Shown: positions 2,946-55,526 of the stretch, in pieces
Layout: the number at the start of each line of letters is the position of its first letter
Position numbering within the stretch: position 1 is the first letter of the stretch
IMG/VR virus record: IMGVR_UViG_3300024343_000013
Location: 1 to 63,076 of that record
DNA length: 63,076 bases
Source of the DNA: a virus
Reading direction: 5' to 3' (one strand)
Made by a program: the position numbers and the translations under genes
The notes under the pieces: model-generated
Database searches by the model: none
What the model saw: only the letters and a program-made list of their open reading frames with translations
Told to the model about the DNA's origin: nothing

Positions 2946-3655
2946 CACTTACCACCTAACTGAACTGGAGGAACTGCAAATGGGCCACCAGACATCTTTA
3001 ATGAATTATCCAATTGCTGCCAAAGCGTAAGCCTTGACATATCGTACCAATCTTTCCAAAACGATCTACCAACTAACGACGGGTCATCAAAGTTCTTTAA
3101 CGCAAGCTTTGTCGCTGCGTAACATGGAAGAGCTTTTAATAAGATGTCATCTGGCGCAAAGCTGTACGTTCCACTGCCCGTTAGAATTGCAGTAGGTGTA
3201 CTAGCTCCAGTTAGTGTTACGATAACAGTAGACGTCGGTGTCTTGTATAGCCCAATGTCATACGGACCCGACCTAAACCAATGCGTTGGTGTTCCAGTTG
3301 CCAACGTGTAGGATGGATCGTAAGCGTATAGCTCTGGTTCGCCAGTATGTATTAATGCTGTGCCACCAACAGATGCAACTTGTGGAAACCAAATAACTGT
3401 GTCTGCGTAAGTTCTGACACGTGCTGATGACGTAGTCAACGCGACGGTTGCTGTTTGATAGCAACATGAACGGCACATCTCATTTGCGCCTTCAATCAAA
3501 TAATCGAGTAAACCTTCATCAGAAGAAATTGTATATGTGGCACCACCTGCACCAGTAGCTCCATTGCCTGTGGCAATTTCGCCTACTACTGAAAGGTTTG
3601 TTTCATTTAAAAGACGGAGCGTTTCATATCGCAAGTCTGTAAAGCCTACAGCCAT
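2945..3655 (-). CDS. Head-tail adaptor/connector-type protein (236 aa)
   Basis: The N-terminus has the layout of phage adaptor proteins: short helix with LRYETLRLLNE, then LLDYLIEGANEMCRSCCYQ, followed by a beta-rich middle and a C-terminal helical part (ILLKALPCYAATKLALKNF). These proteins form the ring between portal and tail nozzle in short-tailed phages. Start ATG at 3655 overlaps the TAA of the upstream gene, which has the same general design, so the two may be successive rings. Family placement is from pattern memory (DUF6682/gp6-like), not a search. Confidence 0.65.
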   Translation of the reverse strand: MAVGFTDLRYETLRLLNETNLSVVGEIATGNGATGAGGATYTISSDEGLLDYLIEGANEMCRSCCYQTATVALTTSSARVRTYADTVIWFPQVASVGGTALIHTGEPELYAYDPSYTLATGTPTHWFRSGPYDIGLYKTPTSTVIVTLTGASTPTAILTGSGTYSFAPDDILLKALPCYAATKLALKNFDDPSLVGRSFWKDWYDMSRLTLWQQLDNSLKMSGGPFAVPPVQLGGK

Positions 3656-25025: not shown

Positions 25026-25267
25026 ATCTGTATGGATCCTAACTGTTTTTCTCCGAGGGGAAACATGTTCTCCGACGGGAGAAATAGATAAAGGATAGCT
25101 GAGAATATATGTTTTGGAGTCCCAACTAGGCCGGACATGCCCGGGCACCCCCTTGCCATGACCCCTACCTAGCCCCACCCGCCCTATCCACGTGACTTGG
25201 TTGCAAATCCCCGGGCACCTACATGGCATGGACGCCCTCCGGGGTCGCCCGGTCAACTCTACTCCGA
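25026..25267. other. GC-rich divergent spacer with G-quadruplex motif and direct repeat
   Basis: No gene is seen in this spacer between the leftward and rightward units. It holds two small UUCUCC-type hairpins (about 25049-25084). CCCGGGCACC occurs twice exactly 70 bases apart (25140-25149, 25210-25219). On the minus strand there is a run of G-tracts (GGG, GGG, GGGG, GGGG, then GGGGG) across 25184-25148 that fits a G-quadruplex. The base composition is much richer in GC than the genome. Candidates are replication origin, early promoter region or packaging site; no direct proof. Confidence 0.4.
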
Positions 25268-25327
25268 ATGTTCACATAATCGTTCACCTGATTATGTCCG
25301 ACGATGGCAGGTTATAGCCGAAAACAT
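25268..25327 (+). ncRNA. Hammerhead-like ribozyme, variant core (type III layout)
   Basis: Stem III ATGT/ACAT plus the T-A core pair, cleavage triplet TTC at 25271-25273, perfect 8-bp stem I ACATAATC/GATTATGT, core CCGACGA (25298-25304), stem II GGC/GCC with one extra base, and GAAA (25320-25323). The layout equals that of the two canonical copies downstream, but core position 4 is C instead of U, a normally conserved position. It lies 21 bases before the first early gene. It may be slow, inactive or a structured remnant. Confidence 0.55.
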
Positions 25328-25347
25328 AAAGGAAACTAAACTAAACT

Positions 25348-25695
25348 ATGACAGTAAACGACGTTATCGCGACAGCGCGACAGGATTATGCGGGCATCAT
25401 GCAGGCACTGAAGGTATACCGCGAATCGGCTATACCATGCGATATGAAAACTATCGTTGACACGTGCAACGATATCGCGCAATCGTACGGTCAATCATTC
25501 GCAACAGACCCTAAAGCAACGCCTAAAACGTTGCAGGCGGTATTGGACGCGATTCAAGCGGAAGTAAACCTTACGGTGGTGGCTGTCAAGGCTAAGAAGG
25601 CGGCTGACCGTAACGTATCGATGGCTAAGGCGCAAGTCAAGGCTATGGACTTCAGCGGATTGACCGCAGACATCGAAGAAGCCCCGTCCAAGTGA
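25348..25695 (+). CDS. First early protein, hypothetical (115 aa)
   Basis: Helical soluble protein (MTVNDVIATARQDYAGIMQA, DMKTIVDTCNDIAQSYGQSF, EVNLTVVAVKAKKAADRNVS). No family recognised. GGAAA lies upstream of ATG 25348. It is the first gene right of the divergent spacer, so it is likely expressed first, and it uses more GC than later early genes. A host-takeover role is possible by position only. Confidence 0.7.
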   Translation: MTVNDVIATARQDYAGIMQALKVYRESAIPCDMKTIVDTCNDIAQSYGQSFATDPKATPKTLQAVLDAIQAEVNLTVVAVKAKKAADRNVSMAKAQVKAMDFSGLTADIEEAPSK

Positions 25696-25722
25696 CGGGG
25701 TGCCCCGGTTCAATACCGGGGC
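25682..25722 (+). terminator. Two consecutive GC-rich hairpins after the first early gene
   Basis: CCCCGT/ACGGGG (25682-25700) overlaps the gene end, then GCCCCGGT/ACCGGGGC (25702-25722) with a 5-base loop follows, then TACTTTATTCTC. The weak T-tract makes it a partial terminator or a 3'-end protecting hairpin rather than a full stop. Confidence 0.5.
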
Positions 25723-25755
25723 TACTTTATTCTCAACTCAAAAAGGAACGAAACA

Positions 25756-26079
25756 ATGAGCCGTATTGACTTAAACACAGTATTGACCCCTGACATCACG
25801 CTATTGAACCAACTGGCACCGCGTAGCATATACGGTTGCAAGGCACACCTTGTGTTGTCTGCTATTGCACCTAATGGCAAGCGTGAAGACGTTCGGGTAA
25901 CACAAGACATTGACCCGCAACGATTGGCTTTCTTATGCCAGTGCTCTGTTCGGATGTCCCGTGGTGTTGTGAATGACGAACTGCACATCAACTATCACTC
26001 AGATGACTGTAGTGCGTATGTTGGAATGGGTGACGTCATGAACGAACTGACTGAGGAAGGGTATACGGATGTTCGCTAA
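25756..26079 (+). CDS. Early hypothetical protein (107 aa)
   Basis: No family recognised. The protein starts MSRIDLNTVLTPDITLLNQL and carries several Cys and His residues (FLCQCSVRMSRGVV, HINYHSDDCSAYVGMG). AGGAACG lies just upstream of ATG 25756. It is followed by a GGGGGC/GCCCCC hairpin and the first canonical hammerhead, so its mRNA 3' end may be set by ribozyme cleavage. Confidence 0.7.
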   Translation: MSRIDLNTVLTPDITLLNQLAPRSIYGCKAHLVLSAIAPNGKREDVRVTQDIDPQRLAFLCQCSVRMSRGVVNDELHINYHSDDCSAYVGMGDVMNELTEEGYTDVR

Positions 26080-26156
26080 AGTGAAGATGGCATCCTGCTG
26101 ATGTTGACGGAATGTGCCGTCCGACGGCTGGTACGACAGGGGGTGTTGCAGACGAA

Positions 26157-26172
26157 GGGGGCTTAGGCCCCC
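26157..26172 (+). terminator. GC hairpin just upstream of a hammerhead ribozyme
   Basis: GGGGGC-TTAG-GCCCCC, 6 bp with a 4-base loop, ten bases before the ribozyme. There is no U-tract. After ribozyme cleavage it would sit near the new 3' end of the upstream mRNA, where it could block 3' exonucleases. From 26080 to 26267 there is otherwise only the ribozyme and a 21-codon frame (ATG 26101) with no support. Confidence 0.5.
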
Positions 26173-26181
26173 AACCTTTAA

Positions 26182-26241
26182 ACGTGTCCTCATTGGGTGA
26201 TGCCAATGAGCTGACGAGGCCAGTCTATAGGCGAAACACGT
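26182..26241 (+). ncRNA. Hammerhead ribozyme, type III
   Basis: All conserved parts are present. Stem III ACGTG/CACGT with the T-A pair; cleavage triplet GTC, predicted cut after 26188; 8-bp stem I CTCATTGG/CCAATGAG with loop GTGATG; core CTGACGA (26211-26217); stem II GCC/GGC with one extra G and loop AGTCTATA; GAAA (26233-26236). It lies 26 bases before the next gene. It should self-cleave, separating the upstream and downstream early mRNAs. Confidence 0.85.
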
Positions 26242-26267
26242 AACGCAAACAAAGGAAACATACTGCC

Positions 26268-26510
26268 ATGCAATTTAATGGCTGCTTCATGACGTCAAAC
26301 CGCCGGTTCTCATTCGAGATCACAACCCCAACGGCACTCACACAGACAACGATTAAGGTTACATCCGCATTCGGATGGAATTCAGTAACGAGGCATATCG
26401 ATACCTATGCTGAACTCGAGAAGAACATGATTGCGGTAGCTCGAGTGTTGGGTGGTGGTGATGACGCAAGCGTAGTTGCATTGGCTAAGATGATTGGAGA
26501 ATCAAAGTGA
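26268..26510 (+). CDS. Early hypothetical protein (80 aa)
   Basis: Family not recognised. N-terminal beta part (RRFSFEITTPTALTQTTIKV) and a C-terminal helix (YAELEKNMIAVARVLGGGDD). GGAAA precedes ATG 26268. After cleavage of the ribozyme at 26188 its mRNA would start with a 79-base leader carrying a 5' hydroxyl. It overlaps the next gene by GTGA. Confidence 0.7.
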   Translation: MQFNGCFMTSNRRFSFEITTPTALTQTTIKVTSAFGWNSVTRHIDTYAELEKNMIAVARVLGGGDDASVVALAKMIGESK

Positions 26511-26638
26511 AGAAGTTGATGAATAACTGGTGGGTTCGTTTTATCCTCGACGGGTTGACGGCTGTTATTATCGTCGCTGGTTTGCTGTTCATCTATTGGG
26601 GGCTGTCAACACTCCCAATGCACAGATACGGACACTAA
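26507..26638 (+). CDS. Small single-pass membrane protein (43 aa, GTG start)
   Basis: GTG at 26507 overlaps the upstream TGA and has GGAG 8 bases before. Sequence: basic N-terminus VKKLMNNWWVRF, then one hydrophobic helix (LTAVIIVAGLLFIYWGLS), then a short polar tail. Positive charges at the N-terminus suggest N-in topology. Similar tiny early membrane proteins occur later at 28816 and 36341. Family unknown. Confidence 0.65.
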   Translation: MKKLMNNWWVRFILDGLTAVIIVAGLLFIYWGLSTLPMHRYGH

Positions 26639-26645
26639 GAACTAC

Positions 26646-26669
26646 GGGGTGGTGCTCACGTGCCACCCC
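26646..26669 (+). terminator. GC hairpin just upstream of the second hammerhead ribozyme
   Basis: GGGGTGG and CCACCCC pair over 7 bp around a 10-base loop, ending one base before the ribozyme. No U-tract follows. This repeats the hairpin-then-ribozyme order seen at 26157-26241. Confidence 0.5.
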
Positions 26670-26670
26670 A

Positions 26671-26727
26671 ACGTGTATCTATAGGGTGATTCCTATAGAC
26701 TGATGAGGCAGTCAAGCCGAAACACGT
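26671..26727 (+). ncRNA. Hammerhead ribozyme, type III
   Basis: Canonical copy. Stem III ACGTG/CACGT with the T-A pair; cleavage triplet GTA, predicted cut after 26677; 8-bp stem I TCTATAGG/CCTATAGA with loop GTGATT; core CTGATGA (26700-26706); 3-bp stem II GGC/GCC with loop AGTCAA; GAAA (26719-26722). Stem III is identical to that of the copy at 26182 while stem I differs completely but stays fully paired, which is strong evidence for selection on structure. Confidence 0.9.
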
Positions 26728-26770
26728 TTAAAACCTTGTCAGATATCAAACCAAACAAAGAGGTATTCCA

Positions 26771-27397
26771 ATGGAAAACCGTTTCTGTTTCAACATAAAC
26801 TTCAGCCCCTATGGGGCTGTCCCGTCTCCTGTCGTGTATAGCGACGCAAAGCTCGATGTTGACCGCATCTGTGCTGCGATCCTTGGAGATGTCCTGCGAT
26901 GTCGTACATACTACGATGCTCAGGTTGAGGGTCGGCAATACACAGACGAGCATGCCATGAGCGATGCGAGAATGTTTCTGCAATGCGCATTCATGTGCGT
27001 AGTGCAAGAACAGTACGGTGAGGCTCTCAACTGGTACAACATGGCACACAAAGTGTTCTGTGGTGACCTCAACCCAGCTGTAGTTTCAACCATGCATGGC
27101 GCCGTTTGGATGCAATGCGATGGCGAGGACTGGGGAGTCTATATGAACGCTGACATTGTTACTCAGTTTGGTAACACTACAACGCACATAAAAATTGCCG
27201 ACATTACACCTCACCCAACGAGGCCCGGTAAGCACACCATATCCGTACTCGACCGTATGGAAGAGTTACGGTATGGACAAGGCGGATGGTTTGCGCACCT
27301 TGATAAATCAAGAGCTGCATACAAACAACAACAGATCGATGCCAAAGGCCTCGATTTTACATACGATGACGATGATGTGGTAGGAGAAACAAAGTGA
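26771..27397 (+). CDS. Early hypothetical protein (208 aa)
   Basis: Family not recognised. Soluble, with several Cys and aromatic residues (MENRFCFNINFSPYGAVPSP, FLQCAFMCVVQEQYGEALNW) and a C-terminal acidic tail (DFTYDDDDVVGETK). The central part (VWMQCDGEDWGVYMNADIV) looks beta-stranded. It starts 44 bases after the second canonical ribozyme and overlaps the next gene by GTGA with AGGAG ahead. Confidence 0.7.
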   Translation: MENRFCFNINFSPYGAVPSPVVYSDAKLDVDRICAAILGDVLRCRTYYDAQVEGRQYTDEHAMSDARMFLQCAFMCVVQEQYGEALNWYNMAHKVFCGDLNPAVVSTMHGAVWMQCDGEDWGVYMNADIVTQFGNTTTHIKIADITPHPTRPGKHTISVLDRMEELRYGQGGWFAHLDKSRAAYKQQQIDAKGLDFTYDDDDVVGETK

Positions 27398-27837
27398 AGA
27401 AGAAAAAGGGTTTGCTGAAACAGATTGAGACGATTTGGCTTGCCAAGCAGGTCAAGAACGAGATGATCAATTTCCATAAGGGTGTTGACGAATGTGTCAG
27501 AGACTTTGGGTACAGAAAGGAGGAGATGTTGGACTTTCCAAAGTGGCCATACGCACTCAAGACCCCAGACGGGTCTTACGTCTGTACCCCTAACCCAGAC
27601 AAGCGGTTAATGCTCTGTCTGTTCCTTACTGCTGATGAGGCAGAACAGATGAAAGCAATGTTTCATGCCTCAACCGGTAATGACTGCGAGGTTGTGCAAC
27701 CAGAGCACAACTTCCCATTCCGGAAGGATATAGTCCTCATGATCAAGGACTGTGGGTTTGAAATGTGGTACGGCACATATCGCAGTGTGTACCACCTGCA
27801 AACAATCAAAAGCATGGAAGCCACTGGGCTTCTGTGA
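27394..27837 (+). CDS. Early hypothetical protein (147 aa, GTG start)
   Basis: Starts at GTG 27394 inside the upstream stop (GTGA), with AGGAG 8 bases upstream; the CAAAGTGAAGAAG context is the same as at 26504. Basic N-terminus (KKKKGLLKQIETIWLAKQVK), then a mixed domain (YVCTPNPDKRLMLCLFLTAD, FPFRKDIVLMIKDCGFEMWY). Family unknown. Its TGA lies in the stem II strand of a possible type II hammerhead. Confidence 0.7.
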   Translation: MKKKKGLLKQIETIWLAKQVKNEMINFHKGVDECVRDFGYRKEEMLDFPKWPYALKTPDGSYVCTPNPDKRLMLCLFLTADEAEQMKAMFHASTGNDCEVVQPEHNFPFRKDIVLMIKDCGFEMWYGTYRSVYHLQTIKSMEATGLL

Positions 27838-27904
27838 GACGAAACTTCTCCCATGCGGAGAAGTCTGTCAAGAGTTGACCGCCTTGCGCTGATGAGTCAG
27901 GTCA
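27835..27904 (+). ncRNA. Possible type II hammerhead ribozyme
   Basis: Permuted layout with stem II open: TGA-GAC (27835-27840) pairs with GTC...TCA (27896-27904, with a bulge). GAAA is at 27841-27844. Stem III is CTTCTCC/GGAGAAG plus A-T (27845-27864), cleavage triplet GTC with predicted cut after 27865, core CTGATGA (27889-27895). Stem I is weak (CAAG/CTTG with a bulge) and competes with the local hairpins GTCAA/TTGAC and CGC/GCG. The core fits the rule, but activity is uncertain. Confidence 0.5.
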
Positions 27905-41851: not shown

Positions 41852-42631
41852 CAATGTAACTGTTTTGTTTACATGGTTAATTGCAATATAAGATCCCAAC
41901 CAAAGAGCTAAGTCCCTGACACCGATGTGACGCTTGCCATCTCGCGTAATCAAAGGTGCAGGGATGATCTCACTACCCCACATAGCACCATCGTCTGTTG
42001 CTTTCAAATTAACAAGCACCTCATGCGGTGTAAAAAACATGCTTAAGGCATTACGCAACGGAGCGTACACACGGCTTGCATGGTTAATACATTCAACCTG
42101 ACGATTCTTTACCTTTAAAACCCACTCCTCATCCTGCTGTATCATTTTTGTCCAACAAATAAACTTAAGACTATCAGCAGTTCTATTTGCATAGACATTA
42201 GGGCGCCGAGCAACTAAGTATCCATTGCGACTACCGTTGTTATTACTATTGCCTTCTATGCTTCCAATAATCCCATCAGCACCTTCAGTGTCAACAATAC
42301 CAATGTGATATGCGTCATCGCCACGATGGCAGACAAACAAGTCTCCCGGAGTCGGAGACGATGTCAGTAGCTGTCGTTTTCTTGCCCAGCTATAAACCAC
42401 GTCACAATCAGCAGTAACAGGGACAGGCCAGTCAATGTTATGAACATCCTGAAATTCTTTTCCTATTCCAGATACAAATGAACAACACCAAAAACTTCCA
42501 ATAGGAACATTGCATTGTGTGTTCCACTTGTCAATTAAGTCACCCCTGTTACTTCCATGAGGTTCTTCTGCTGTTCCAACATACTTATCTGCAACCGCAA
42601 GAAATGCTTTAGCGATTTGGTTGCTGTTCAT
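41840..42631 (-). CDS. Endolysin: CHAP/NlpC-type peptidase plus Cu-amine-oxidase-N-like domain (263 aa)
   Basis: N-terminal cysteine peptidase domain: SFWCCSFVSG (Cys 49/50), AYHIGIVD (His109) and SIEGNSNNNG (Asn128), the Cys-His-polar set of CHAP/NlpC-P60-like wall amidases or peptidases. The C-terminal domain (SEIIPAPLITRDGKRHIGVR then ALWLGSYIAINHVNKTVTLS) looks like the copper amine oxidase N-like module used in cell-wall proteins. It cleaves peptidoglycan cross-links at lysis. Start ATG 42631 overlaps the end of the giant upstream gene by 23 bases. Confidence 0.75.
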   Translation of the reverse strand: MNSNQIAKAFLAVADKYVGTAEEPHGSNRGDLIDKWNTQCNVPIGSFWCCSFVSGIGKEFQDVHNIDWPVPVTADCDVVYSWARKRQLLTSSPTPGDLFVCHRGDDAYHIGIVDTEGADGIIGSIEGNSNNNGSRNGYLVARRPNVYANRTADSLKFICWTKMIQQDEEWVLKVKNRQVECINHASRVYAPLRNALSMFFTPHEVLVNLKATDDGAMWGSEIIPAPLITRDGKRHIGVRDLALWLGSYIAINHVNKTVTLSKP

Positions 42632-45600
42632 TGTTATTAATTTCCTTCATTTTTTCATTTCGATATGCATCAATAATAGCTCGTTCTACATTTCCTAATG
42701 GTAAACGTATGTTTTCCTTAGTGGTTGCTTTACTGGTTGACTCATCGCTAGGTATACCCAGTGCGTATGACCCAACATCTTCAACTGGATAACCAAAGAA
42801 AACATCAGCTGGGTTTTCTCGCAACGTTTGAAATAAGTTAGGATACTTATACCAGTTACGCATCATGTATGAAAGGCGCCCCAGACTAACACTTGAGTTT
42901 GGTCCCACTCTTACTGGATACTTATTGACTTCATCAAACTCACGTGGCTCATACATTACGTTGAGTCCGGCCATTCTCGGCACTGTGCCTTTCCACCATA
43001 ATTCATTTGCTGCTTCCTTACTTACTACAACACGATCTGGGATAGCTCCTGCTTGCATCATTTCAGTCATAGTCATACCGCGTTTTGCGGCTTCCGAATA
43101 AAGACCTAACTTTAATAGGTCATCATAGTATTGACTTTGATGTGCAAACGTCATCGTGTCCATAGTCAAATTGCTTTGATTAGGCATGATATATCCCATC
43201 GGATGGAAATACGCTGGAGCACGAACATCGTTATCTACTGCAACCCGTAGTCCTTGCTGCCGTTCATACGCAGCCCTGCGATCAAATGTAGATCCAGTAG
43301 CATGACTGATAACCCATTGCCCTCCATTGTGGATTTTATTTTTAATGTATGTTTGAACCATGGTTTGCATAAAAGCTTGCGCTTTTTCTTTTGGCCCATA
43401 GTTACTTTTATCAGCCAATGCAGATAACGGTTTCGCCATCTGCCCAAACTTACTCAATACTGGCACAGCAAAAATCCAGTTATCGTTTAATCTGTTGTAG
43501 CCAAATCGTTTTGCTAAGAGGTTCCACCATTCAGTAGCATCCATTTCTTCATCTGGACGATTCTTCATGTGGTCATACCAGTTAAGCAAACCATTAGCAA
43601 TAATAACTGCAGACCATGCACCTACCTGTGTCCATTTATCCCTAGCCATTCTGTCTCTTGCCCAAGTAGTGTTGTACTTTAAAAATCTTTCATCACTTTC
43701 AATGTCATACACTTCACCAGCAAGCCACTTTGGTCCGCCAGCTGTGGCAACGCGAGCTATCTCATTAACCTTTCGCTTAAACCCTAGGAAAGGCATGAAG
43801 CCCCAGTACTGAGCAAAGCTGCGGTTATACCCCGGAGCAGTCTGCGGATACTGTGCAATCTTAGCAAGAACACTCCACACTGGTGCTTGATCTTTACTGT
43901 TAGCATGACTACCTACTCCAAATTCTTTAGCGTAATTCATCATTGACGCTTTAATGTCTTTGTTGATATCTACCTCATCTTTTTTAGTTTTAGAATGTTT
44001 TTGTGCACGAGCGTCTTTGACTGCCGACAATGCATTCTGAACCATCATTAAGTCAATCAGTAACTGTCTTGACATATCAAATCGTCGAGCCAATGGATAC
44101 ACAATGGTAGGTAACTCATTAGCAAAAGAGTTTTCTCTTTCACTAGTAAATGGAGTATCAATAAGTTGACGATACTTACTTGGATCTCGTACTACATTTG
44201 CTTTATGTGCTCTGTGCCAGTCAGCATATGCTCCTTGCATGTAGTACTTTTCAATGAGATCTGTCATAGTAATCGGCTTTGATAACCGATTTGTTACATT
44301 AAATCTATCAACGACAGAGTTCATAATGAAGTCGTAATACTTCACATCTAAATTCCACGCTTGATTCCAAAATTTGCTACCACGATTTGCGTATCGGTTA
44401 GACTGGCGATATGCATGAAGGTAATGACCAGCTATCATTCCTAGATCTGCTGTACCAAAAGCAAATACTTCAGGAATCGTTAGAGCCATGCCTTTTAATA
44501 AGCGTACTGGATTGCGAATTTGTCCACCTAGCTGTACTGCCAATGAGGATATGTCAAGTGCTAACGTCATAAATGTCATTAACGTACGAGCTGGTTGAAA
44601 CACATTTTTATTAGCATTGTAAACAGCCTCTTTAAATTTAGGACTAGCCGAAAACAATGTCTCTAAATCGGAACCATCAATAGTTACAGCTTCACCATTA
44701 GAAACAGATGTTTCATACGGAGTACCTTTTAAGAAGTTGCCTACTGTTCTATCCCATGCATCTGCAGAGACTTGCATTACAGGATGTTCAATAGGTCCAG
44801 ACCTCATAAGACCTTCGCTAGTCTTACCATCTTTAACAAACGTCATTGCATCTGGGTCTGTCTTATTAGCTTTTTGTGCAATCCGCGTGTATTCATCAAG
44901 TGCATCACGAGAATCAATAGTAGTTTGATCACCTGAGTCTTTAAGATGTACTGCATGTTGCTCCTTCTGTACAGGAACACTGTCTCCAGTATCGTCTATA
45001 AAACGAGGACTACTTGAATACCATGTTCCATTACTTGCGTCCTGTAAGAAGTCTCCACCACTTGGCACTAAAGACTTGTTTCCAATCTTATTAAATGACA
45101 AGTGCTTTGGACTATCACCAGCACGGTCTTTAGCCAACAACAACTTAGCAATGTGATATTCCTCTTGCAACATCTGATGAGCTAATATCTGTTGTTGTTT
45201 TTCTTTTGTCAATGTCATAGGTGATGACGTTTCAAAAGGAGCTGCAACCATCTGAAGTAAACCAACAGGTAATTGCGAGCGATAGTTGTCTGCGCTTTGC
45301 CAGTTGTTTTTAGCTTGTCTAAATTCCCATGCCTGATTCTTCTTGTTGTAAACACCCTTTACTAAATGCATTCCGTTATTAGTGTGCATAGATGTAACAC
45401 TGCCATCTAGTTCATTGTCGAACGTATCTAAAGCAGTTTCGTCACGACTAGATAATGCACTTAGTGTTTCTGGCAACAAGAAGTAAACAGGCAAATTGTT
45501 TGCCATTGCATGTACGTAAACATCTTCTCCAACTAACGTTCCAAGAGTACGATACAGGTCCTCGCCAGATGTACCAAACAACTGTTCTGCACTCAGGACA

Positions 45601-48600
45601 ATGCTCTTATCGGCAGCATCAAATGCTAATGGATCTTGTTTTGGTAATTGATTTGGCTTATTTACATAGTTGTAACGCAAGAAGTCATCAACATCCTTTA
45701 CGTCTACATAACTGGTTTCATACTTACCAGTGCCCTTGTTCAACCTTTTAGACTTAGCAACAAGCTTGACCTTACCGGTCTCCATGTTGACTCGGTAGAG
45801 TGCACCAGATTTAGTTGCTCCTTTATTATCTGCAGCAATATCTCGGTCAGGTGATTTGATAATGACTTCGCCAGTATCTACATTAGTATCAACTAACTCA
45901 TAGCTCTTCCAGTTACGGAGAGATGCGTTACGTATCTTTGCATCAGTGCGAACGATGTGTTCAACAACGTTAAACAAGTTTCGTGCATTGATAACATCAC
46001 GAGCAGATCCATTATTAGGTATCCGTCCAGATGCTGCTTGCAGGAAATTCATACGTTGTTGATCGTTAGTAAAGATCTTAGTGAACACGTGATCAAGAAC
46101 TGCATGTGGCATAACCTTCAATGCTGTTTCAGCACTAAAGGTTTGTGAGACATCACTCTGACCAACATAGTAATTGACTAAGTTATTAAAATCTTGAGGT
46201 GTAGGAGCTTGAGATGCTAAGAAAGATAGCACTCCACTTACATCAATAGATCGACCTCTGTCCATGTAATCAGAAGATAACCCAGTTCTGGTATATGGAG
46301 TTGGGGCAGCAGGAGCATTTGGATCAACTACTGCAACGGCAGTACTGTCAGATGCTTCTGTCAAATATGTATAAAGCTCCGACAATCGTTCCGGTAGTTT
46401 CTTCGCGCTTGTATCGAGAGCTGCATTGTTTTCACGAACCCATCTGCGTAACGATGTAGCAGACCACTGATTCATGAATCCTCCATAAGTCGTAGCTACT
46501 TCTTCATCAGAAATGTTAATACCAAATAATTGGTCAATTAATGATGAAGCGTCAACTGTTGTGTCACCTATCTTCACAGTTAATGACTTTGGTGTAAACC
46601 GATCTCCATTGGAGTTCACCATATCTTCAGTTGGATTTGTCAAGTACTCCCGCAAACTTGTAGAAGACATGTCTTGATTCATCTTGAAACGTGCATATGC
46701 AACATGTTCAAGGAAATCTTTTACCTCATATAAACCACTGAACATTTGTTCATGTACAGCTGTAATTATTGGAGCAATGCCACGATCATTAAACTTCTCA
46801 GATACAACAGGTACAAATGAATACCAACCTAATCCCTTACTCATAAAGTTGACCATCTTTTCAGTTAAGGTTTCACTGGTATTGTCACTAAGGCTTTTAC
46901 CTACAGTGTCTGCGTGTTGTTGAGTAATGTCACGAATAAGGCTAATAGCCTGATCACGCATAGCTGGGTCTTGAATATTACGCGCCCATCGATACAAGTT
47001 ACGTGCATGAATCTGATTACGTAGCCATGCATGAGTACCTGTGTTTGATACAGCTAGTAGTTCATCTTTTGGTGTAGATGCAACAATAGAAGCAATATCT
47101 TTATTCAATGCCATAGCCAATGGCGCAGACACGACTTCATTCCATTTATCAAAACTACCTGTACGCATACCATCTGCTAACGCTTGGTTCATACGTAACT
47201 CATATTCATAAGTTCGTTGACCACCAATGTCAACAATGTTTCGATCTATGCGACCAAGCATGTTGTACATTAACGACGTAAATGTAGGATTGTTAATATC
47301 ACTAGTGCCGACCATATGGAAGTTTGGACTTTGATCCATGTAGTCGTGGCCTACAACGTAATTTAACTTGACGTCCTTAGCAAAGAAGTTGTCTGCCCCC
47401 AGATCCATTCCTTTACCTTCAGCCAATAAGTTTAAACGTAATTGAGAATTACTTTCAACGAGATACCCGTAGTCTCCTCTAGTACCACGTTGAAAAATAC
47501 GTGCTAAGCCACTGCTAAAATCAAAAACATTTAATCCATACCAAGGTGAATTACTGCTGTCTGTCTTTGTGTCGAGAATCCATTTCTTACCAACGAGATC
47601 CATTGTGACGCCAGACCAGTTACGTTCACCAGACTTATCTCTAACCATGCCAACAACTTTGCCAATGGCTGAATAACCTTGTTCTTGTGTTGTGCCTTGT
47701 GCCTGTTGAACAAATCCATTATCACCAGCGATAGACAATCGGTAATGTTTACCGTATACAAATCCTCGATCTTGCAAACTCTCAAGTTTAGTTACAAGTG
47801 TATTCAACACCTCTCGGTCAGTGATGATTGGACGTAACACAGCTTCTAACTTAGGTCTATTACCAATTAGATTTGCATTGGTTGCGAGTACGTCATGCAC
47901 ATCAACAGTTCGTAAACTGCCACTGTATTTCTTTCCAACATCATTAATAAACGAGATGAAGGAGCCATGACGAATTGGGTAAAACTTTCGGTTTACACCA
48001 GTGGTGCTAGTAGTTTCATAAACAACTGACGTAGGCTTGTAGTAAAAAGCGTTTACTGGCTTGCCATCAATGGATGCATATGGTCCATACTCAGAGGTTA
48101 ACTTAGCTGCCATTGGCTCCAAGACAGACTTTAAGTTCATTAGAGTAGCGGTGACATCTTCAGCCACTGGCACAGTTCCATTTGGCTTGTGAACAACACC
48201 ACTATGGAGAATAAAATTAACCATACTGGTGGCAGCCATCTCACTAAAAATAACCTTTGCATTTCTGATTTGTTCTGGTGTGTACTTTGTACCCTCCAGT
48301 CCTTTAGCAAAGTCTTCAAATGACATTAACCTAAACATTGACTTAGAGTCGTCTGCAAATTCACCAAGTCTTTTATTCATACTGTTTATGTAGGCATGGA
48401 ATAATTCCATCTCAGGAGAAACGTGTTCGTCATCGCCCTTACTCTTTAATGGAGGAGCAATAGCACGTATCCAACCTAACTGATCAGCATGAGGTAAAGA
48501 ATAAAATAAATGGTGCGATACTTCATGAGCCATAGTCAACGCAGTCTTGCCTATGTTTTTAGATGCAGCCATAAACAATAAGGACGCAATAGCGTCTGTC

Positions 48601-51600
48601 TGTGCACCATCAGTTTTTACACGAATAGGTTTAATGAATGCATCAATATTCTTATTGGAATCAGCAAGCATACTGTATCCAAGATCAGCAATCATAGACT
48701 CATGGGCAAAGAATAGTTGATGATGTTGATTATAGAAGTCTTGTTTTAATTGAGCTGCACGTAACGTAACTAACATCTTCTGTTGATCTTTGGTAAGTAC
48801 ATCGTCATTTAAAATATCGCGTACACTATTCGCCTTAATAACCATCTGCAAGATTGAGTTATCTAAAAAAAAAAATGACGTCAATGCTTTGTAATCATTT
48901 AGGTTAAAATTGCCATTGATGTCCGCAGATATTAAATTAGTTGCTCGACGTGCAGCGTACATGTCATATAACTTAGCCAAGTTACTAGACACCGAAATAG
49001 CATCAGCATATCTGTTAGCTATTTGCACTGGTGCGTCACTAGACTTACGTGCAATAGAACGATAGTGCTTTGCTAGTTCGTTAAATGTTTGTTTCTCTCT
49101 GTCGGAATAACCGTCTTGCTTCGACAATGTTGTATACAACGTATTTAAAGAAAGAGCATCATTCCTCGTGACTACATCTTCATCCAACGCAGCATACAGA
49201 GACACAGATTCAAACTGCTCCACTTGACTACGTCTAGATGTAGTGCCAGTAAATTGATCATCAACATACGTCGTTCTATTTATTGCTACGTTATCTGTCT
49301 CGGCACTAATGATTGACGCTAATAAAGATTTAACTTTGTATGCAACACCTTGTTGATCTTTCCCGGTAATGCCAAACGTAAGTGTGCTTGCATCGTTAGT
49401 GGCTTTAAATAAACCGTTTTTGGTCTCATCAAATCCTTCTGCAATCGTCATCAAATCCTTCATCTCAAATGTAAAAACTTGAGCATCAGATTCAACACGT
49501 TTTGCATCAACATACTCACGCAACTTTTGGTTAAACAAGTCTTTATTACGACCAGTAAGCATTGACATCATCTTGTCGTAATACAAGTTAAACATAGCTT
49601 GACCTTCAATAAGGCCAGACGTGTCCTCACCATCTAACGTATACTTGCCGTCGACACCGGGTAGTACAGCTGCCATCATCACAGGAGTTTTACTAAACAG
49701 TAACTTGTCACCAACGAATCGTTCAGTTCGTTTTCGCTCGTAGTATTTGCGAGTTCGTTCTGGTCCAATAACTGTTTCAACAATAGCCCTATCTATTGAT
49801 TCATAATTCAACTCATCCTTACTAGCAGCATCAAGTAGCGTAGTAAGAATAATCTTCTCTAGACCAGCACGGTTACCAGCCATTAATAGTTGTGCTGTTT
49901 CTTTTGAACCGCTTGAGTTTTTAATAAATTCTGCACCACTAGATAACTCATTAACTAACGCATCTGCACCAACAGACAGCGCAGGTGTATAAGCTGCACG
50001 TGTGTCGTCCTCAAGTCCACGATCATTTAAAATGAAGTCAGCTATGCTACTACTCATTTCATTAGCCATGTCTAACAGCATTTGTGCACGTTGCATAGGA
50101 CTTAACAACGCGCCTTCTTGAGTTAAACGAGTTCTAATGTTTGAAACAGCATCACTGATTTGCATTCTTCGTGCAGGATCAAAGCTAACACCAAGATACT
50201 TCAACCCGTCAGTTGAAGCAGAATGAATTAGATTAATAGCAGCAGCTTTATCTGCATCAGAGCCAATAATGTTATGTGCAGCACGAGCCATTTGATCAAT
50301 CTGACCAACGTGCGAGTTAATGGCGTTTACAACTGATAACGCATCTGTTGCATCACCACGCATTGAGTTGCGTAATAACCCTCTAATGACTTCTTTTGAT
50401 GTAAGTTCAATAAACGTTTTTAGGTCAACAACATTTATGCGTGAGTACATCTGTGCAGCTTCGGCAATGATTGATTTACCGTCAGGTCCAACAATTGAAT
50501 CTGCTAACTTTGTCAGCTCTTTCATTGCTCCACGGATTGCTGTTGCTCGCTTTGTCTCTACAGATTCGCCAGTGCTTTCACTCTGTGCGACCTTACTCAT
50601 TACCTCTGTAGCAAACTGTTGGAAACGTTGTCCATCTGCATCTGTTGCAAATAAATCACTTAGGTTAAATCCTAACGACTGTGAGCCTTCTGCTCCAAAT
50701 GCATTGATAAATCCAGCAACTAACGCTTCACGTGCAGCATTGGAATTACTTCTGTCTACAGCGCGAATAGTATCTACTAGCCACATAAGGGGAGATGCTA
50801 ATCCAAGTAGTGTTGATTTAGCTACTTCTGGCAGCTCACCAAATACCTGTATAGATTTTGCTATTTCAGCATTGGTTTGTTGTGCATGTTTTGCAAGCAT
50901 TAAACCTTCTGGCGAAATATTAGTTGCTTCGTCTTTCTGAAAGACCTCAACACCATCAAATATTGCTGTGTCATCTACAGCATCAATTAATCCAGTGGCA
51001 ACATCTATAACCTGTTGTATTGCTTCTTGGTTACCTACCAATGCATTACGAGCAGAGTCATCTCTAATTAGCCCAGTGTCAATCATTCCATCTGGTGCTG
51101 CAAGTTGTACAGCGGTAGTTAGTTCCTTGACACTGACTGGTATAGCAGAGTCTGGTAAGTCCTTATTCCTATTTAACGTGTTTGTTAAAATAGCAAGCTT
51201 TTCTGTTGCTGCCCTTTGAATCATTTCTCCAATAGAGTCACGTGACCGTTGCATATTGGCGCGTAACACATCGTTAGCACGTGGGTCAGTGATGTCTACA
51301 TTAACTTGACGAACAAGTTCAGACCCACCCTTTGCAATCTCAAAGAAGTAGCCTAATCCATTAGCGTACATAGCCGAACGTAAGTTATCTACTGCTTCAG
51401 GTCCGCCACCAAGAGCACGTGAATACAGATCCTTTGCGTATGTAACAGATTGCTCGTACTTTTCCTTTGACTTAAACCACTCACCAAAACCGATCTTGTA
51501 CGCATCTGGCATATCTTCATATGGAAGATAGGTAGATAGCACTTGGATTTCATGTGGTAGTGCAGCCATTTTTTCAAGCATCCAGATAGAACCCTTTTGA

Positions 51601-54600
51601 ATTACGGTTCCTAAAGCTAATGGGTTGACTGAACTCTTTAACTTTGCAAGACGCTTAGCTGTTGCTACTGCATTATCTAAGTTGTCACTAAATAATGGAT
51701 TGTTCCCAAGAAAGTTACGTAAGATTCGAGTTGCTTGTTCGTCTGTAATATTGCCAGTGCGACGTAGATGTCGACTCAGAATATCAGCAGCATTAAGCAT
51801 AACCTGCAACTGACCTTGAGTACGCCCCATACGTCTAGGTGAACTAGAATAGTTAACGTCAGAACTTACTTCTTTATCAGTATCAAATCGTCTAATAATT
51901 TCATCAAGAACATTATTCAGGTCTGCATTCTGTGCTATCTTTTGAATCTTAACTAATGCATCCATCCGCTGATCAGCTGGTGATTTACTTAATTCAAGTG
52001 TCAACGCACTATGCATTGCACTCTCAAACACAATAGCGTTATCTGGATTCTTGAGCATCCATTCACGAATACTTGCAGTTAGGTTTTGCTCAATAGCTGA
52101 GTCATCTAAGTTTTGTGTAAGCGTGTCATAGATGAGGCTAGGTAATTCCTCAGTTGTAGCATTGACGATTTCTGGTAACAGCGTAACCATACTGCCAGAG
52201 TCTGTATCTTGTGACGTCAACCAGAATGCATATCTACTGATGTTTCCAATAACATCATTTGATGGACGTAATGCCGAGACATCAACACCAGATATGCGCT
52301 GAGCCTGTTCCATTTGTTTACGCAAGAAATCAACATTTAACGATTCAGTTTTGTTGGCTGGTGAATCAAAAATAAATGCAGGGACACCTTGTAAATTATC
52401 TAACGGCAAACCATAAGCTGCATCTTGGGTAGATTCAACTACAACGTATCGACGGTATGTTCCATCTTGTTGAGGAACAGCAATAATATCTCCAACTTGT
52501 CGTTTGTTTTCTGGTGCAGCATCTATTGCAGACCTATAAATATCAGTTGGAGTACCTACTCCACCCATTTGTATTTCAGCAATTTGTTCATCAGTGAGTA
52601 ATAAATCAATAGGAAAGTTTTCACCTTCAGGATTCGTAAACGTCATCCGATAACGTTTTGTTTCTGGATTAAACGTATACGCATCCGAATCGTAGATATC
52701 TCCAGTTTCAGCAAATCCCCTACCTACTACTGACTCGTTTGTAAAACCGTAATACTTACCATTGTCACCTTGGAACACTATGGTTCCTCGTGCTCCGCCA
52801 ACACGGTTAGCACCTACGATTTCACCAGTAGACACATGTGTGTCCGGTAGCTCTAACTGGAATCGTTTATCAGCACCTCTGCTTCCAGCGTGTGGATTTG
52901 ATAACGATGGATCTTTTAGGATAACGTCAAGACCAGCAATGGCATCAGAAACAATTTCTGCTTCTCTGTCATTACTAGCTGACTCATGAACACCTAATTC
53001 ATTTTGTAACTGTTCACGTGATATATCAAACACGTTCCCAGCACGATTACGAACTACCAATCCAAGACGCGAGAAACCTATTATAGCAACTTCGTCACCT
53101 TCATACGGAAGTAATGGTGAGTTTCTAAATAGGCTATTAAATGCAACCAACGCTTCTTGACGTTCAGGTGTATTAATTACCTGATTAGGTTCAGAAGTCC
53201 GGTTAGGCTTAAGCATGACGATGTCAGGCGATTCACTTAGTGGAACCATAGTTGCAGAACTAAAGTCACGGTTGTAGACAACCATGTTGCCATCGCCTAG
53301 ATCAATGCCGTAGTACTGTGCATTAGGTTTATCTACGGGTTTTGTAATTTTACTTTCGTCAAACAAGCGTTGATATTCTGGCAATAACGAATCAGACAAC
53401 GCACGGATTTGTCTACGTCGTGTCATTAAATCCGAGTTGTACTCTGGAGATACTTCAATATCATTCATAACGCTATCGTCATCAACCGACGTCTGATCAT
53501 CGCGGATGCCGTCAATTAAAGCGTCATACTTAGCACGTAATTGTTCTGGAAATTGTTCTGGATTCTTCAGGAATGCGTCAACGTATTCAGCTGTTGTTTT
53601 AAATACAGGTGTACCTTCAGGTACATCTTGCATTTGCCCAAGCCTATTTAAATTCTCTGTGTTGTCAGCGCCCATGACTGTAGCAACACGACGTAAATCC
53701 GTTTCATTTGGTCGTAGGTTGCCACCCTCAACATTCATACGACTTGTGTAGTCTTGACGTAAAGACTCTAATTCTTTAGCACCCTTGTTTACAATGTCTG
53801 AGGCATGAGCTAAAGCCATTGCCTTTGGTTCCATGGACTGCAATGGATTACCACGGAAGATCCATTGTGCAGATTTACCGGGTCGTGACGCAACCATACC
53901 TAATAAGAATGACCGTGTAATATCTTCCGCTGTTGGTTCATCATATGGCTTAGTTTTATCAACACGCATAGATGCGTATATCTTTCGACCAATATCACTT
54001 AGTGGTTGCGTACTAGCAAACCCTAAATCAACCATTGCTGCTCGTCCAACTTCGGACTCAACAGACTTTGCTATACCAGCACCCATGGCTGTAAATGGAT
54101 TACGAGACTGCTGTAGTGACCCACGCATTGCAGTCATGCCCTGAGCAGCAGTGTTCTTGACATCACGCCACATCTGCACAGCGCCACCACTTGCCATTGC
54201 CAGTATTCCAACCTGTTGGAAAGCGCCAGCTACACGTCCATATGGATCAAAGTTTTGTTGTCCGGTAATCGATGACTCAGTCATACCTCGTTGGGCTACG
54301 GATCGTACTGGGTCAGTTAATGTTTCATAGCCAGCAACTAAATCTTCTCTGACGCCGGGTTGCCCACCAGTTAATTGATCACGAAAACCTTGAACAAGAG
54401 GTGGAGTAACCACACCTGCAGTTAATCCTGCGCCTCTACCAATAGCAGAAGCTCGTGTTCCAAATGGAGCTAACAGCCGACCGCCTAAAGTTGCAGACGC
54501 ATTTAACAAGCCAAGGCTAGAATACATAGCAGGAACAGCTTGTACAAGTTCACCGCCAAATGCAGAACCCATTTGGAAGAACTGGTTGTCCATACCCGGA

Positions 54601-55526
54601 GCGTTGGCTTCGTTACTTGCTTGATACCAAGGAGACTGTTGTGTTATGTTGCCTGCAAGTTCATTGGCTCGTTCAGGTGTATTGCCAGCCATTCTCGCGC
54701 CAAGGTAGGACGTTCCTTGAGTAAGACCTGACATATAGTCAAGTGGTTTTGTGCCTATACCAACGCGAGTGCCTTCGGCAGATGACAATGCCTTACCAGC
54801 AAAAGTGTCTGGAGCAAATGCAGGAGTATTACCAAAACGGTTAGCAATCAAACTTTGTGCTGCCATACCACCGGGTAAAGCAGAACCCATAACTGCACTT
54901 CCAGCACCTATACCAAATGCTGCTAAGTTACTTGCAGTTTCTAATCCAACATTGACAGGCCGCGCATCCTCAATCATTTGAGTTTGACGTCTACGTGTTG
55001 CTTCTGTTACGGCATTGATATCTGCAGCAGATGTAGGAAGCTTGTATGCCCACGAACCATCTGGATTATATTCAATTAATTTAGAGTGCGTAAGAGTTGA
55101 TTGTACAGGTCCAAATTCACCCGGCGTGTCAGTTAAACCTAATCGACCATACTGTACTGGTCGACCACCTGTGGTAATTGGTGTTTGCGAAAGAGTTTTC
55201 CGGAAGCCTTCTATGTTGTCAGACATCCAGTCGTATTGTTTTTGTGAGATTAATCCGTTCTGCACACCATAGCGAGCCATGTCTAATGTAGCAGAACTAA
55301 CAACACGAGGATCTTTAGACTGTATAGCTTGAGCTACTGGCCAGTAGTTTTCATTTTGCCATTTACGTCGATCATCTGGAGATGCAAAATCATAGCCAAC
55401 TCGTGGCGTAGGATTTGTTACACGCACACCACCTGTTGGTGATGGAACAACACCGGCTTCTTTGTATCTCTTCTTCCAGTAATCATCACTAAAAGAACGT
55501 TTCTTACCAGCATTAGTTTGTGGCAT
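42609..55526 (-). CDS. 4305-aa giant virion protein with HExxH metallopeptidase motif
   Basis: One 12.9-kb frame, about a fifth of the window. N-terminal 100-480 has several hydrophobic Gly/Ala helices (NLAAFGIGAGSAVMGSALPG, VGILAMASGGAVQM), fitting membrane insertion during DNA ejection. A zinc peptidase motif AHEVSHHLF lies at 2333-2341, with H2334, E2335, H2338 and a plausible third ligand E2429 (FSEMAATSMVNF). The C-terminal 650 residues (TLMTFMTLALDISSLAVQLG, AWSAVIIANGLLNWYDHMKN) resemble the LPD38-type end of large phage polyvalent proteins. Probably ejected into the cell; enzymatic parts other than the peptidase are not recognised. Confidence 0.8.
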   Translation of the reverse strand: MPQTNAGKKRSFSDDYWKKRYKEAGVVPSPTGGVRVTNPTPRVGYDFASPDDRRKWQNENYWPVAQAIQSKDPRVVSSATLDMARYGVQNGLISQKQYDWMSDNIEGFRKTLSQTPITTGGRPVQYGRLGLTDTPGEFGPVQSTLTHSKLIEYNPDGSWAYKLPTSAADINAVTEATRRRQTQMIEDARPVNVGLETASNLAAFGIGAGSAVMGSALPGGMAAQSLIANRFGNTPAFAPDTFAGKALSSAEGTRVGIGTKPLDYMSGLTQGTSYLGARMAGNTPERANELAGNITQQSPWYQASNEANAPGMDNQFFQMGSAFGGELVQAVPAMYSSLGLLNASATLGGRLLAPFGTRASAIGRGAGLTAGVVTPPLVQGFRDQLTGGQPGVREDLVAGYETLTDPVRSVAQRGMTESSITGQQNFDPYGRVAGAFQQVGILAMASGGAVQMWRDVKNTAAQGMTAMRGSLQQSRNPFTAMGAGIAKSVESEVGRAAMVDLGFASTQPLSDIGRKIYASMRVDKTKPYDEPTAEDITRSFLLGMVASRPGKSAQWIFRGNPLQSMEPKAMALAHASDIVNKGAKELESLRQDYTSRMNVEGGNLRPNETDLRRVATVMGADNTENLNRLGQMQDVPEGTPVFKTTAEYVDAFLKNPEQFPEQLRAKYDALIDGIRDDQTSVDDDSVMNDIEVSPEYNSDLMTRRRQIRALSDSLLPEYQRLFDESKITKPVDKPNAQYYGIDLGDGNMVVYNRDFSSATMVPLSESPDIVMLKPNRTSEPNQVINTPERQEALVAFNSLFRNSPLLPYEGDEVAIIGFSRLGLVVRNRAGNVFDISREQLQNELGVHESASNDREAEIVSDAIAGLDVILKDPSLSNPHAGSRGADKRFQLELPDTHVSTGEIVGANRVGGARGTIVFQGDNGKYYGFTNESVVGRGFAETGDIYDSDAYTFNPETKRYRMTFTNPEGENFPIDLLLTDEQIAEIQMGGVGTPTDIYRSAIDAAPENKRQVGDIIAVPQQDGTYRRYVVVESTQDAAYGLPLDNLQGVPAFIFDSPANKTESLNVDFLRKQMEQAQRISGVDVSALRPSNDVIGNISRYAFWLTSQDTDSGSMVTLLPEIVNATTEELPSLIYDTLTQNLDDSAIEQNLTASIREWMLKNPDNAIVFESAMHSALTLELSKSPADQRMDALVKIQKIAQNADLNNVLDEIIRRFDTDKEVSSDVNYSSSPRRMGRTQGQLQVMLNAADILSRHLRRTGNITDEQATRILRNFLGNNPLFSDNLDNAVATAKRLAKLKSSVNPLALGTVIQKGSIWMLEKMAALPHEIQVLSTYLPYEDMPDAYKIGFGEWFKSKEKYEQSVTYAKDLYSRALGGGPEAVDNLRSAMYANGLGYFFEIAKGGSELVRQVNVDITDPRANDVLRANMQRSRDSIGEMIQRAATEKLAILTNTLNRNKDLPDSAIPVSVKELTTAVQLAAPDGMIDTGLIRDDSARNALVGNQEAIQQVIDVATGLIDAVDDTAIFDGVEVFQKDEATNISPEGLMLAKHAQQTNAEIAKSIQVFGELPEVAKSTLLGLASPLMWLVDTIRAVDRSNSNAAREALVAGFINAFGAEGSQSLGFNLSDLFATDADGQRFQQFATEVMSKVAQSESTGESVETKRATAIRGAMKELTKLADSIVGPDGKSIIAEAAQMYSRINVVDLKTFIELTSKEVIRGLLRNSMRGDATDALSVVNAINSHVGQIDQMARAAHNIIGSDADKAAAINLIHSASTDGLKYLGVSFDPARRMQISDAVSNIRTRLTQEGALLSPMQRAQMLLDMANEMSSSIADFILNDRGLEDDTRAAYTPALSVGADALVNELSSGAEFIKNSSGSKETAQLLMAGNRAGLEKIILTTLLDAASKDELNYESIDRAIVETVIGPERTRKYYERKRTERFVGDKLLFSKTPVMMAAVLPGVDGKYTLDGEDTSGLIEGQAMFNLYYDKMMSMLTGRNKDLFNQKLREYVDAKRVESDAQVFTFEMKDLMTIAEGFDETKNGLFKATNDASTLTFGITGKDQQGVAYKVKSLLASIISAETDNVAINRTTYVDDQFTGTTSRRSQVEQFESVSLYAALDEDVVTRNDALSLNTLYTTLSKQDGYSDREKQTFNELAKHYRSIARKSSDAPVQIANRYADAISVSSNLAKLYDMYAARRATNLISADINGNFNLNDYKALTSFFFLDNSILQMVIKANSVRDILNDDVLTKDQQKMLVTLRAAQLKQDFYNQHHQLFFAHESMIADLGYSMLADSNKNIDAFIKPIRVKTDGAQTDAIASLLFMAASKNIGKTALTMAHEVSHHLFYSLPHADQLGWIRAIAPPLKSKGDDEHVSPEMELFHAYINSMNKRLGEFADDSKSMFRLMSFEDFAKGLEGTKYTPEQIRNAKVIFSEMAATSMVNFILHSGVVHKPNGTVPVAEDVTATLMNLKSVLEPMAAKLTSEYGPYASIDGKPVNAFYYKPTSVVYETTSTTGVNRKFYPIRHGSFISFINDVGKKYSGSLRTVDVHDVLATNANLIGNRPKLEAVLRPIITDREVLNTLVTKLESLQDRGFVYGKHYRLSIAGDNGFVQQAQGTTQEQGYSAIGKVVGMVRDKSGERNWSGVTMDLVGKKWILDTKTDSSNSPWYGLNVFDFSSGLARIFQRGTRGDYGYLVESNSQLRLNLLAEGKGMDLGADNFFAKDVKLNYVVGHDYMDQSPNFHMVGTSDINNPTFTSLMYNMLGRIDRNIVDIGGQRTYEYELRMNQALADGMRTGSFDKWNEVVSAPLAMALNKDIASIVASTPKDELLAVSNTGTHAWLRNQIHARNLYRWARNIQDPAMRDQAISLIRDITQQHADTVGKSLSDNTSETLTEKMVNFMSKGLGWYSFVPVVSEKFNDRGIAPIITAVHEQMFSGLYEVKDFLEHVAYARFKMNQDMSSTSLREYLTNPTEDMVNSNGDRFTPKSLTVKIGDTTVDASSLIDQLFGINISDEEVATTYGGFMNQWSATSLRRWVRENNAALDTSAKKLPERLSELYTYLTEASDSTAVAVVDPNAPAAPTPYTRTGLSSDYMDRGRSIDVSGVLSFLASQAPTPQDFNNLVNYYVGQSDVSQTFSAETALKVMPHAVLDHVFTKIFTNDQQRMNFLQAASGRIPNNGSARDVINARNLFNVVEHIVRTDAKIRNASLRNWKSYELVDTNVDTGEVIIKSPDRDIAADNKGATKSGALYRVNMETGKVKLVAKSKRLNKGTGKYETSYVDVKDVDDFLRYNYVNKPNQLPKQDPLAFDAADKSIVLSAEQLFGTSGEDLYRTLGTLVGEDVYVHAMANNLPVYFLLPETLSALSSRDETALDTFDNELDGSVTSMHTNNGMHLVKGVYNKKNQAWEFRQAKNNWQSADNYRSQLPVGLLQMVAAPFETSSPMTLTKEKQQQILAHQMLQEEYHIAKLLLAKDRAGDSPKHLSFNKIGNKSLVPSGGDFLQDASNGTWYSSSPRFIDDTGDSVPVQKEQHAVHLKDSGDQTTIDSRDALDEYTRIAQKANKTDPDAMTFVKDGKTSEGLMRSGPIEHPVMQVSADAWDRTVGNFLKGTPYETSVSNGEAVTIDGSDLETLFSASPKFKEAVYNANKNVFQPARTLMTFMTLALDISSLAVQLGGQIRNPVRLLKGMALTIPEVFAFGTADLGMIAGHYLHAYRQSNRYANRGSKFWNQAWNLDVKYYDFIMNSVVDRFNVTNRLSKPITMTDLIEKYYMQGAYADWHRAHKANVVRDPSKYRQLIDTPFTSERENSFANELPTIVYPLARRFDMSRQLLIDLMMVQNALSAVKDARAQKHSKTKKDEVDINKDIKASMMNYAKEFGVGSHANSKDQAPVWSVLAKIAQYPQTAPGYNRSFAQYWGFMPFLGFKRKVNEIARVATAGGPKWLAGEVYDIESDERFLKYNTTWARDRMARDKWTQVGAWSAVIIANGLLNWYDHMKNRPDEEMDATEWWNLLAKRFGYNRLNDNWIFAVPVLSKFGQMAKPLSALADKSNYGPKEKAQAFMQTMVQTYIKNKIHNGGQWVISHATGSTFDRRAAYERQQGLRVAVDNDVRAPAYFHPMGYIMPNQSNLTMDTMTFAHQSQYYDDLLKLGLYSEAAKRGMTMTEMMQAGAIPDRVVVSKEAANELWWKGTVPRMAGLNVMYEPREFDEVNKYPVRVGPNSSVSLGRLSYMMRNWYKYPNLFQTLRENPADVFFGYPVEDVGSYALGIPSDESTSKATTKENIRLPLGNVERAIIDAYRNEKMKEINNNEQQPNR

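Follow-up and report, generated by a model that had tools for sequence, protein, structure and literature searches.

What might several self-cleaving RNAs do between the genes of one phage operon? The question is raised by an IMG/VR virus record of 63,076 bases, a 63-kb phage record analysed here over its whole length and termed the window. In it, four hammerhead or hammerhead-like elements (HHR1, HHR3, HHR4 and HHR-II) stand before genes of the first rightward operon. From comparison of the sequences we consider it rather probable that the four elements cut the polycistronic transcript. Hairpin and ribozyme together would provide an mRNA 3' end without stopping transcription, and would insulate the gene cassettes from each other.

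Four hammerhead elements in one operon

The window was scanned on both strands and in all three permutations with a descriptor comprising the core, three stems and a UH cut site. Four hammerheads lie within 2.6 kb (Table 1), as the initial annotation had claimed. All are on the + (gene) strand; three are of type III and one is of type II. The same scan of 300 dinucleotide shuffles of the window gave, per 63 kb, on average 0.07 hits of the canonical form (at most 1) and 0.38 of the relaxed form (at most 2). One weak extra match of the relaxed form, at 3380, was rejected because such hits occur at chance level. Core-like motifs at 27632 and 28083 were rejected as well, being coding and lacking stems. 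The distances from the ribozyme end to the start codon are 20, 26, 42 and 19 nt for HHR1, HHR3, HHR4 and HHR-II, respectively.

The hammerhead core (C3 U4 G5 A6 N7 G8 A9 ... G12 A13 A14, A15.1-U16.1, H17; Rfam clan CL00010) is fully matched by HHR3, HHR4 and HHR-II. HHR1 misses it at U4, which is C in the window, and is classed as a hammerhead-like variant. At the gathering threshold, Rfam reported only two tRNAs and no hammerhead in the whole window. In a search with an E-value threshold, HHR-II matched RF02276 with 31.6 bits (E = 0.0017), under the gathering score of 37. Among the relatives, the type II element of contig L048 scored 37.5 bits (gathering 37), and the type III element of L050 45.1 of 48.5 bits (E = 1e-6).

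In local folding, the minimum-energy structure is the hammerhead for HHR4 (z -5.55) and for HHR1 (z -1.59). Loop I of HHR1 (ACCU) is complementary to its loop II (AGGU), and the loop complementarity of HHR1 spans 3–4 nt. Helix I of the window's HHR-II is weak.

The array in related phages

Relatives were sought with genes 4 and 5, with ribozyme patterns and with covariance models built from these elements. The array was found in six other related contigs (G001–G006) and in a near-identical fragment of the window. TerL is 87–92% identical in the four array contigs having it. The order of the array, proposed earlier as a check, is kept in the six contigs. HHR1, HHR3 and HHR-II occur in all array phages, HHR4 in the window, G001, G002 and G003 only. 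No type I hammerhead was found in this clade.

Pairing is retained in these elements while their sequences change. In the aligned set of HHR3 and HHR4, 97.6% of the pair cells are paired and 12 of 21 pairs have changed on both sides; the covariation score was reached by none of 500 shuffles. All cells (100%) are paired in the type II set, pseudoknot included, and compensatory changes occur in helix I and in the pseudoknot between loop I and the 3' tail (two of its four pairs, in three of seven sequences). This pseudoknot is the tertiary contact described for type II hammerheads (PMC3088659). Three pairs between loops I and II are possible, by sequence, in all type III members. Inspection of seven HHR1 sequences showed that all three stems are kept, helices I and III varying with pairing retained. 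The canonical cores of HHR3, HHR4 and HHR-II are invariant across diverged phages.

The genes between the ribozymes have been replaced. Between the window and G001, its nearest relative, the ribozymes are 89% (HHR1), 92% (HHR3), 95% (HHR4) and 73% (HHR-II) identical, whereas genes 1 and 2 show no more similarity than unrelated sequences do. Three unrelated families occupy the place of gene 1 among the relatives and two that of gene 2; the family present at one place depends neither on that at the other nor on the type of HHR1 core. The cassette following HHR4 encodes a Csx16-family protein in G003 (PF09652, E = 3.4e-17; TIGR02620 is under its cut-off). This ring-nuclease-like gene is at L048:4650-4976 (contig IMGVR_UViG_3300047553_000334). 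Csx16 is a cyclic tetra-adenylate (cA4) ring nuclease rare in sequenced phages (PMC12409355), and the L048 gene is likely a type III anti-CRISPR in a phage. A Csx16-family gene would fit an anti-defence locus, as ardA does in the Agrobacterium array.

A related terminase is encoded by >250 contigs. No such ribozymes were found in the fetched parts of seven contigs at a TerL identity of about 73% or less (G007, G009, G011, G016, G020, G023 and G026). In G009, genes 2 and 3b have homologues that overlap their adjoining genes by one base. The array has therefore been gained in this clade or lost elsewhere, at junctions able to work without it. Relatives with the genes, without ribozymes and with unchanged expression had been named as evidence that would speak against cutting; phages with the genes and without the ribozymes do exist, among the sister phages (for example G009). 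Type II hammerhead pairs 0.5–0.9 kb apart were also seen in unrelated phage contigs (L018:1572-2099 and L044:38-1018).

Hairpins, terminators and fate of the transcript

The GC hairpins that the initial annotation had placed upstream of HHR3 and HHR4 are present. They are rare by position: a comparable hairpin ending at most 20 nt upstream was found for only 0.4% of the + strand positions of the window. A weaker hairpin lies in the leader, about 20 nt before HHR1, and the end of gene 5 forms one upstream of HHR-II. Hairpins had also been noted before the gene at 25756. These were confirmed, and no ribozyme accompanies them; the hairpins and the following TACTTTATT look like an intrinsic terminator, and the system is therefore mixed. 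This junction, before gene 2, has a hairpin with a U-rich tail in all seven array phages and a ribozyme in none.

The junction before gene 4 exists in two forms. Four phages (the window and G001–G003) have a hairpin without U-tract followed at once by HHR4; in three (G004–G006) the hairpin has a U-tract and the ribozyme is absent. Hairpin plus ribozyme therefore replaces a terminator. This exchange is the strongest hint to function, suggesting that the pair can form a hairpin-ended mRNA with transcription going on. Another long fold, GAATGCAGG...CCTGCGTTC (L051:4500-4590), follows the terminator-like hairpin in G004 and has no family match. The module of hairpin, hammerhead and gene proposed earlier is thus supported by its order in relatives, by compensatory changes, by retention despite gene replacement and by the interchange with a terminator at one junction.

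Hammerhead cleavage leaves a 2',3'-cyclic phosphate and a 5'-hydroxyl (5'-OH). With elements of types II and III, helix I opens the downstream product; with type II, helix III lies at the end of the upstream product. All four sites are of type II or III, and each predicted downstream product has helix I at its 5' end. Cutting during or soon after transcription would yield the leader RNA, a gene 1–2 RNA, a gene 3–3b RNA, a gene 4–5 RNA and the remainder, probably with no need of host enzymes. Each upstream RNA would end just past a hairpin, which would be the dedicated GC hairpin at HHR3 and HHR4, the weaker one at HHR1 and the ribozyme's own helix III at HHR-II. Each downstream RNA would have its 5'-OH flush with the hairpin of helix I, and its start codon lies 19–42 nt past the ribozyme. 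The hairpin–ribozyme pair would thereby make a terminator-like mRNA 3' end while the polymerase continues. The hairpins may protect the 3' ends and the flush 5' hairpin may delay decay. With each cassette insulated from its neighbours, genes could be swapped without re-tuning the operon. The earlier claim that the operon mRNA is cut into units stands in part: cutting is a natural consequence if the elements cleave and has a precedent in tandem prophage hammerheads, which cleave in vitro, one array also in E. coli (PMC3088659); one junction is terminator-like.

The HHR1 core reads CCGACGA in the window, G001, G002 and G006, UUGAUAA in G003 and G005, and CUGAAUGA in G004. Active natural hammerheads with U3-A8 in place of C3-G8 are known, and low activity has been described for an insertion after A6 (PMC3088659); no discussion of the U4C change was found in the open-access literature searched. 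Only the first site is a variant in every phage, which suggests that its ribozyme is tuned and perhaps slow. A fuller reading, which we hold only tentatively, is that the clade uses hairpin–hammerhead pairs as non-stopping terminators or insulators that define both mRNA ends, leave anti-defence cassettes free to be swapped and include a deliberately slowed variant at the first junction.

Several points weigh against transcript processing. HHR1 and HHR-II are without a strong GC hairpin directly upstream, HHR1 has a rare core in every array phage, and the hairpin of HHR3, having a partial U-tract, may terminate by itself. The bias towards types II and III is based on four sites in a single clade. 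When longer context is included, base-pair probabilities favour other folds over the hammerhead in HHR1, HHR3 and the HHR-II of the window; cotranscriptional folding therefore matters. RNase J1 of Bacillus subtilis destroys the 5'-OH RNA left by glmS cleavage (PMC3328962). Protection of a 5'-OH would depend on the host, and 5'-OH RNAs can be unstable in hosts with RNase J; a search for the phage host by terminase in genome contigs identified none.

The fate of the glmS product would also favour the ribozymes shutting genes down, their 5'-OH products being quickly degraded and each protein made in a short burst. HHR1 has a variant core in every relative, as expected if the cut rate is adjusted. 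The downstream products, however, start with a flush hairpin of 6–9 bp, and expression in E. coli is raised by RiboJ, whose product likewise has a 5' hairpin (mRNA about 2-fold, protein 2–10-fold, with the terminal hairpin proposed as the cause; PMC6206723). The conserved GC hairpin on the upstream side likewise fits protection and not decay, and we regard shut-down as unlikely.

There is little probability that the blocks of hairpin and ribozyme are mainly homology sites for recombination of cassettes, with cleavage secondary. The blocks are nearly identical, and the swaps of genes 1, 2 and 4 are independent of one another and of the type of HHR1 core, but the compensatory changes in helices, pseudoknot and a core pair (C3-G8 to U3-A8) indicate selection on RNA structure, not on DNA identity, and the terminators at the same junctions could serve equally. 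We give similarly little credence to the view that HHR1 serves to release the leader as a small regulatory RNA whose 3' end is defined, the other ribozymes processing mRNA. Its cut would free the leader as a separate RNA of about 158 nt, and the array phages share a conserved leader of about 150 nt, which sister phages have in part. Leader covariation is weak, however (four pairs changed on both sides in the alignment and consensus fold), the leader has no significant match in Rfam, and sister phages keep it without HHR1. That the elements are decayed relics or selfish inserts without function is highly improbable: the HHR1 core is non-canonical, helix I of the window's HHR-II is weak and HHR4 is missing from three relatives, but covariation is strong, the canonical cores of the other three are invariant and no copies were found elsewhere in the genomes.

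Operon layout and known systems

The features of the operon are listed in Table 1. We infer that it is early from its place just past the divergent promoter region and upstream of the DnaB helicase gene.

Table 1. Features of the first rightward operon, in positions of the window.
Feature	Position	Strand	Remarks
Probable promoter region	25045..25115	+	TTCTCC...GGAGAA palindrome, then GAGAATATATGTTTT; putative start site
Conserved leader RNA	25116..25267	+	Upstream of HHR1; alignment and consensus fold
HHR1, type III	25268..25327	+	Core CCGACGA (U4C, one extra base after A9); predicted cut after C25273
Gene 1, 115 aa	25348..25695	+	No family
Two GC hairpins, then TACTTTATT	25681..25722	+	25681-25701 and 25702-25722; before gene 2; no ribozyme
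Gene 2, 107 aa	25756..26079	+	
GC hairpin GGGGGCTTAGGCCCCC	26157..26172	+	9 nt before HHR3
HHR3, type III	26182..26241	+	Core CUGACGA; predicted cut after C26188
Gene 3, 80 aa	26268..26510	+	Conserved in G001, G002, G003, G006
Gene 3b, 43 aa	26507..26638	+	Likely one membrane helix
GC hairpin GGGGTGGTGCTCACGTGCCACCCC	26646..26669	+	Abuts HHR4; no U-tract
HHR4, type III	26670..26728	+	Core CUGAUGA; predicted cut after A26677
Gene 4, 208 aa	26771..27397	+	Csx16-family gene instead in G003, unrelated gene in G004
Gene 5, 147 aa	27394..27837	+	Conserved in array phages (alignment)
HHR-II, permuted type II	27838..27898	+	Core CUGAUGA; predicted cut after C27865
HHR-II pseudoknot	27877..27903	+	Loop I 27877-27880 with 3' tail 27900-27903
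Gene 6, 69 aa	27918..28127	+	Directly after HHR-II; conserved in all array phages

The promoter block is conserved in array and sister phages, with the palindrome at 25068-25083. TTCTCC-N4-GGAGAA palindromes and a GAGAATAT...GGAGTCCC block (window 25050-25115 and sister equivalents) are conserved across a wider phage group and likely represent a promoter with operator sites. Helix III of HHR-II (window 27846-27862) is invariant in seven phages (eight of eight pairs), which points to an additional constraint, and resembles the promoter palindrome at 25068. Its reading as an operator copy (ACTTCTCCCATGCGGAGAAGT) was rejected as unsupported: the pattern is rare in the window, but several copies in other genomes lie in a conserved coding motif. 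In the leader, a long-range GCCAUG/CAUGGC pairing seems possible, also in a sister phage without HHR1.

Predicted structures of genes 4 and 5 had scores in the predicted local distance difference test (pLDDT) of 40 and 78, respectively; gene 5 had only weak matches. No DNA similarity to named phages was found beyond a tRNA. The terminase gave only matches of about 26–27%, to Rhizobium and Pelagibacter phages and one further phage, and the major head protein no matches. The minus strand encodes a protein of 4305 residues (window 42609-55526), a large one for a phage of 63 kb; over the stretch compared, its identity is only about 43% in close relatives with TerL about 90% identical.

The idea of mRNA processing is not new: hammerhead clusters in prophages were described in 2011, together with the proposal that phage RNAs are cut by them into gene-length mRNAs (PMC3088659). 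In the arrays of Perreault et al. 2011 (PMC3088659; Agrobacterium tumefaciens ardA, Azorhizobium caulinodans, Clostridium scindens), several hammerheads flank single genes or short blocks, as several coding-strand hammerheads flank genes of one operon here. An accessory anti-defence gene is nearby in both, ardA there and a Csx16-family gene in a relative here. Unlike those arrays, the present one is traced through seven contigs of one clade: the ribozymes stay in place as genes between them are replaced, dedicated GC hairpins are present, one junction shows exchange with a terminator, and the first ribozyme always has a variant core. HHphage of the haloviruses HF1/HF2 (PMC3088659) is likewise a core-variant phage hammerhead just upstream of a gene; it is a single element with insertions near C3, whereas HHR1 has U4C, U3-A8 or an insertion after A6.

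RiboJ, built from the hammerhead of the tobacco ringspot virus satellite RNA (sTRSV) and a hairpin (PMC6206723), trims upstream RNA before a gene, so that a hairpin stands at the 5' end, ahead of the ribosome site, as predicted here for all four downstream products. It is synthetic and its extra hairpin follows the ribozyme; the GC hairpin of the present array precedes the ribozyme and would come to lie at the 3' end of the previous mRNA. The glmS ribozyme riboswitch also cleaves itself upstream of a gene to give a 5'-OH mRNA, but is a different ribozyme, is ligand-controlled and lowers expression via RNase J1 (PMC3328962). New here, relative to precedents sought in open-access literature only, are the clade-wide comparison, the hairpin modules, the terminator swap, the core-variant first site and the sister group free of hammerheads.

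The function of bacterial and phage hammerheads has been in question since they were catalogued in 2011, and this clade is a natural experiment. Equivalent operon junctions hold a ribozyme, hold a terminator or are formed by overlapping genes, which makes the idea of mRNA processing directly testable. The array suggests that an insulator of the type engineered as RiboJ in synthetic biology arose by evolution in phages.

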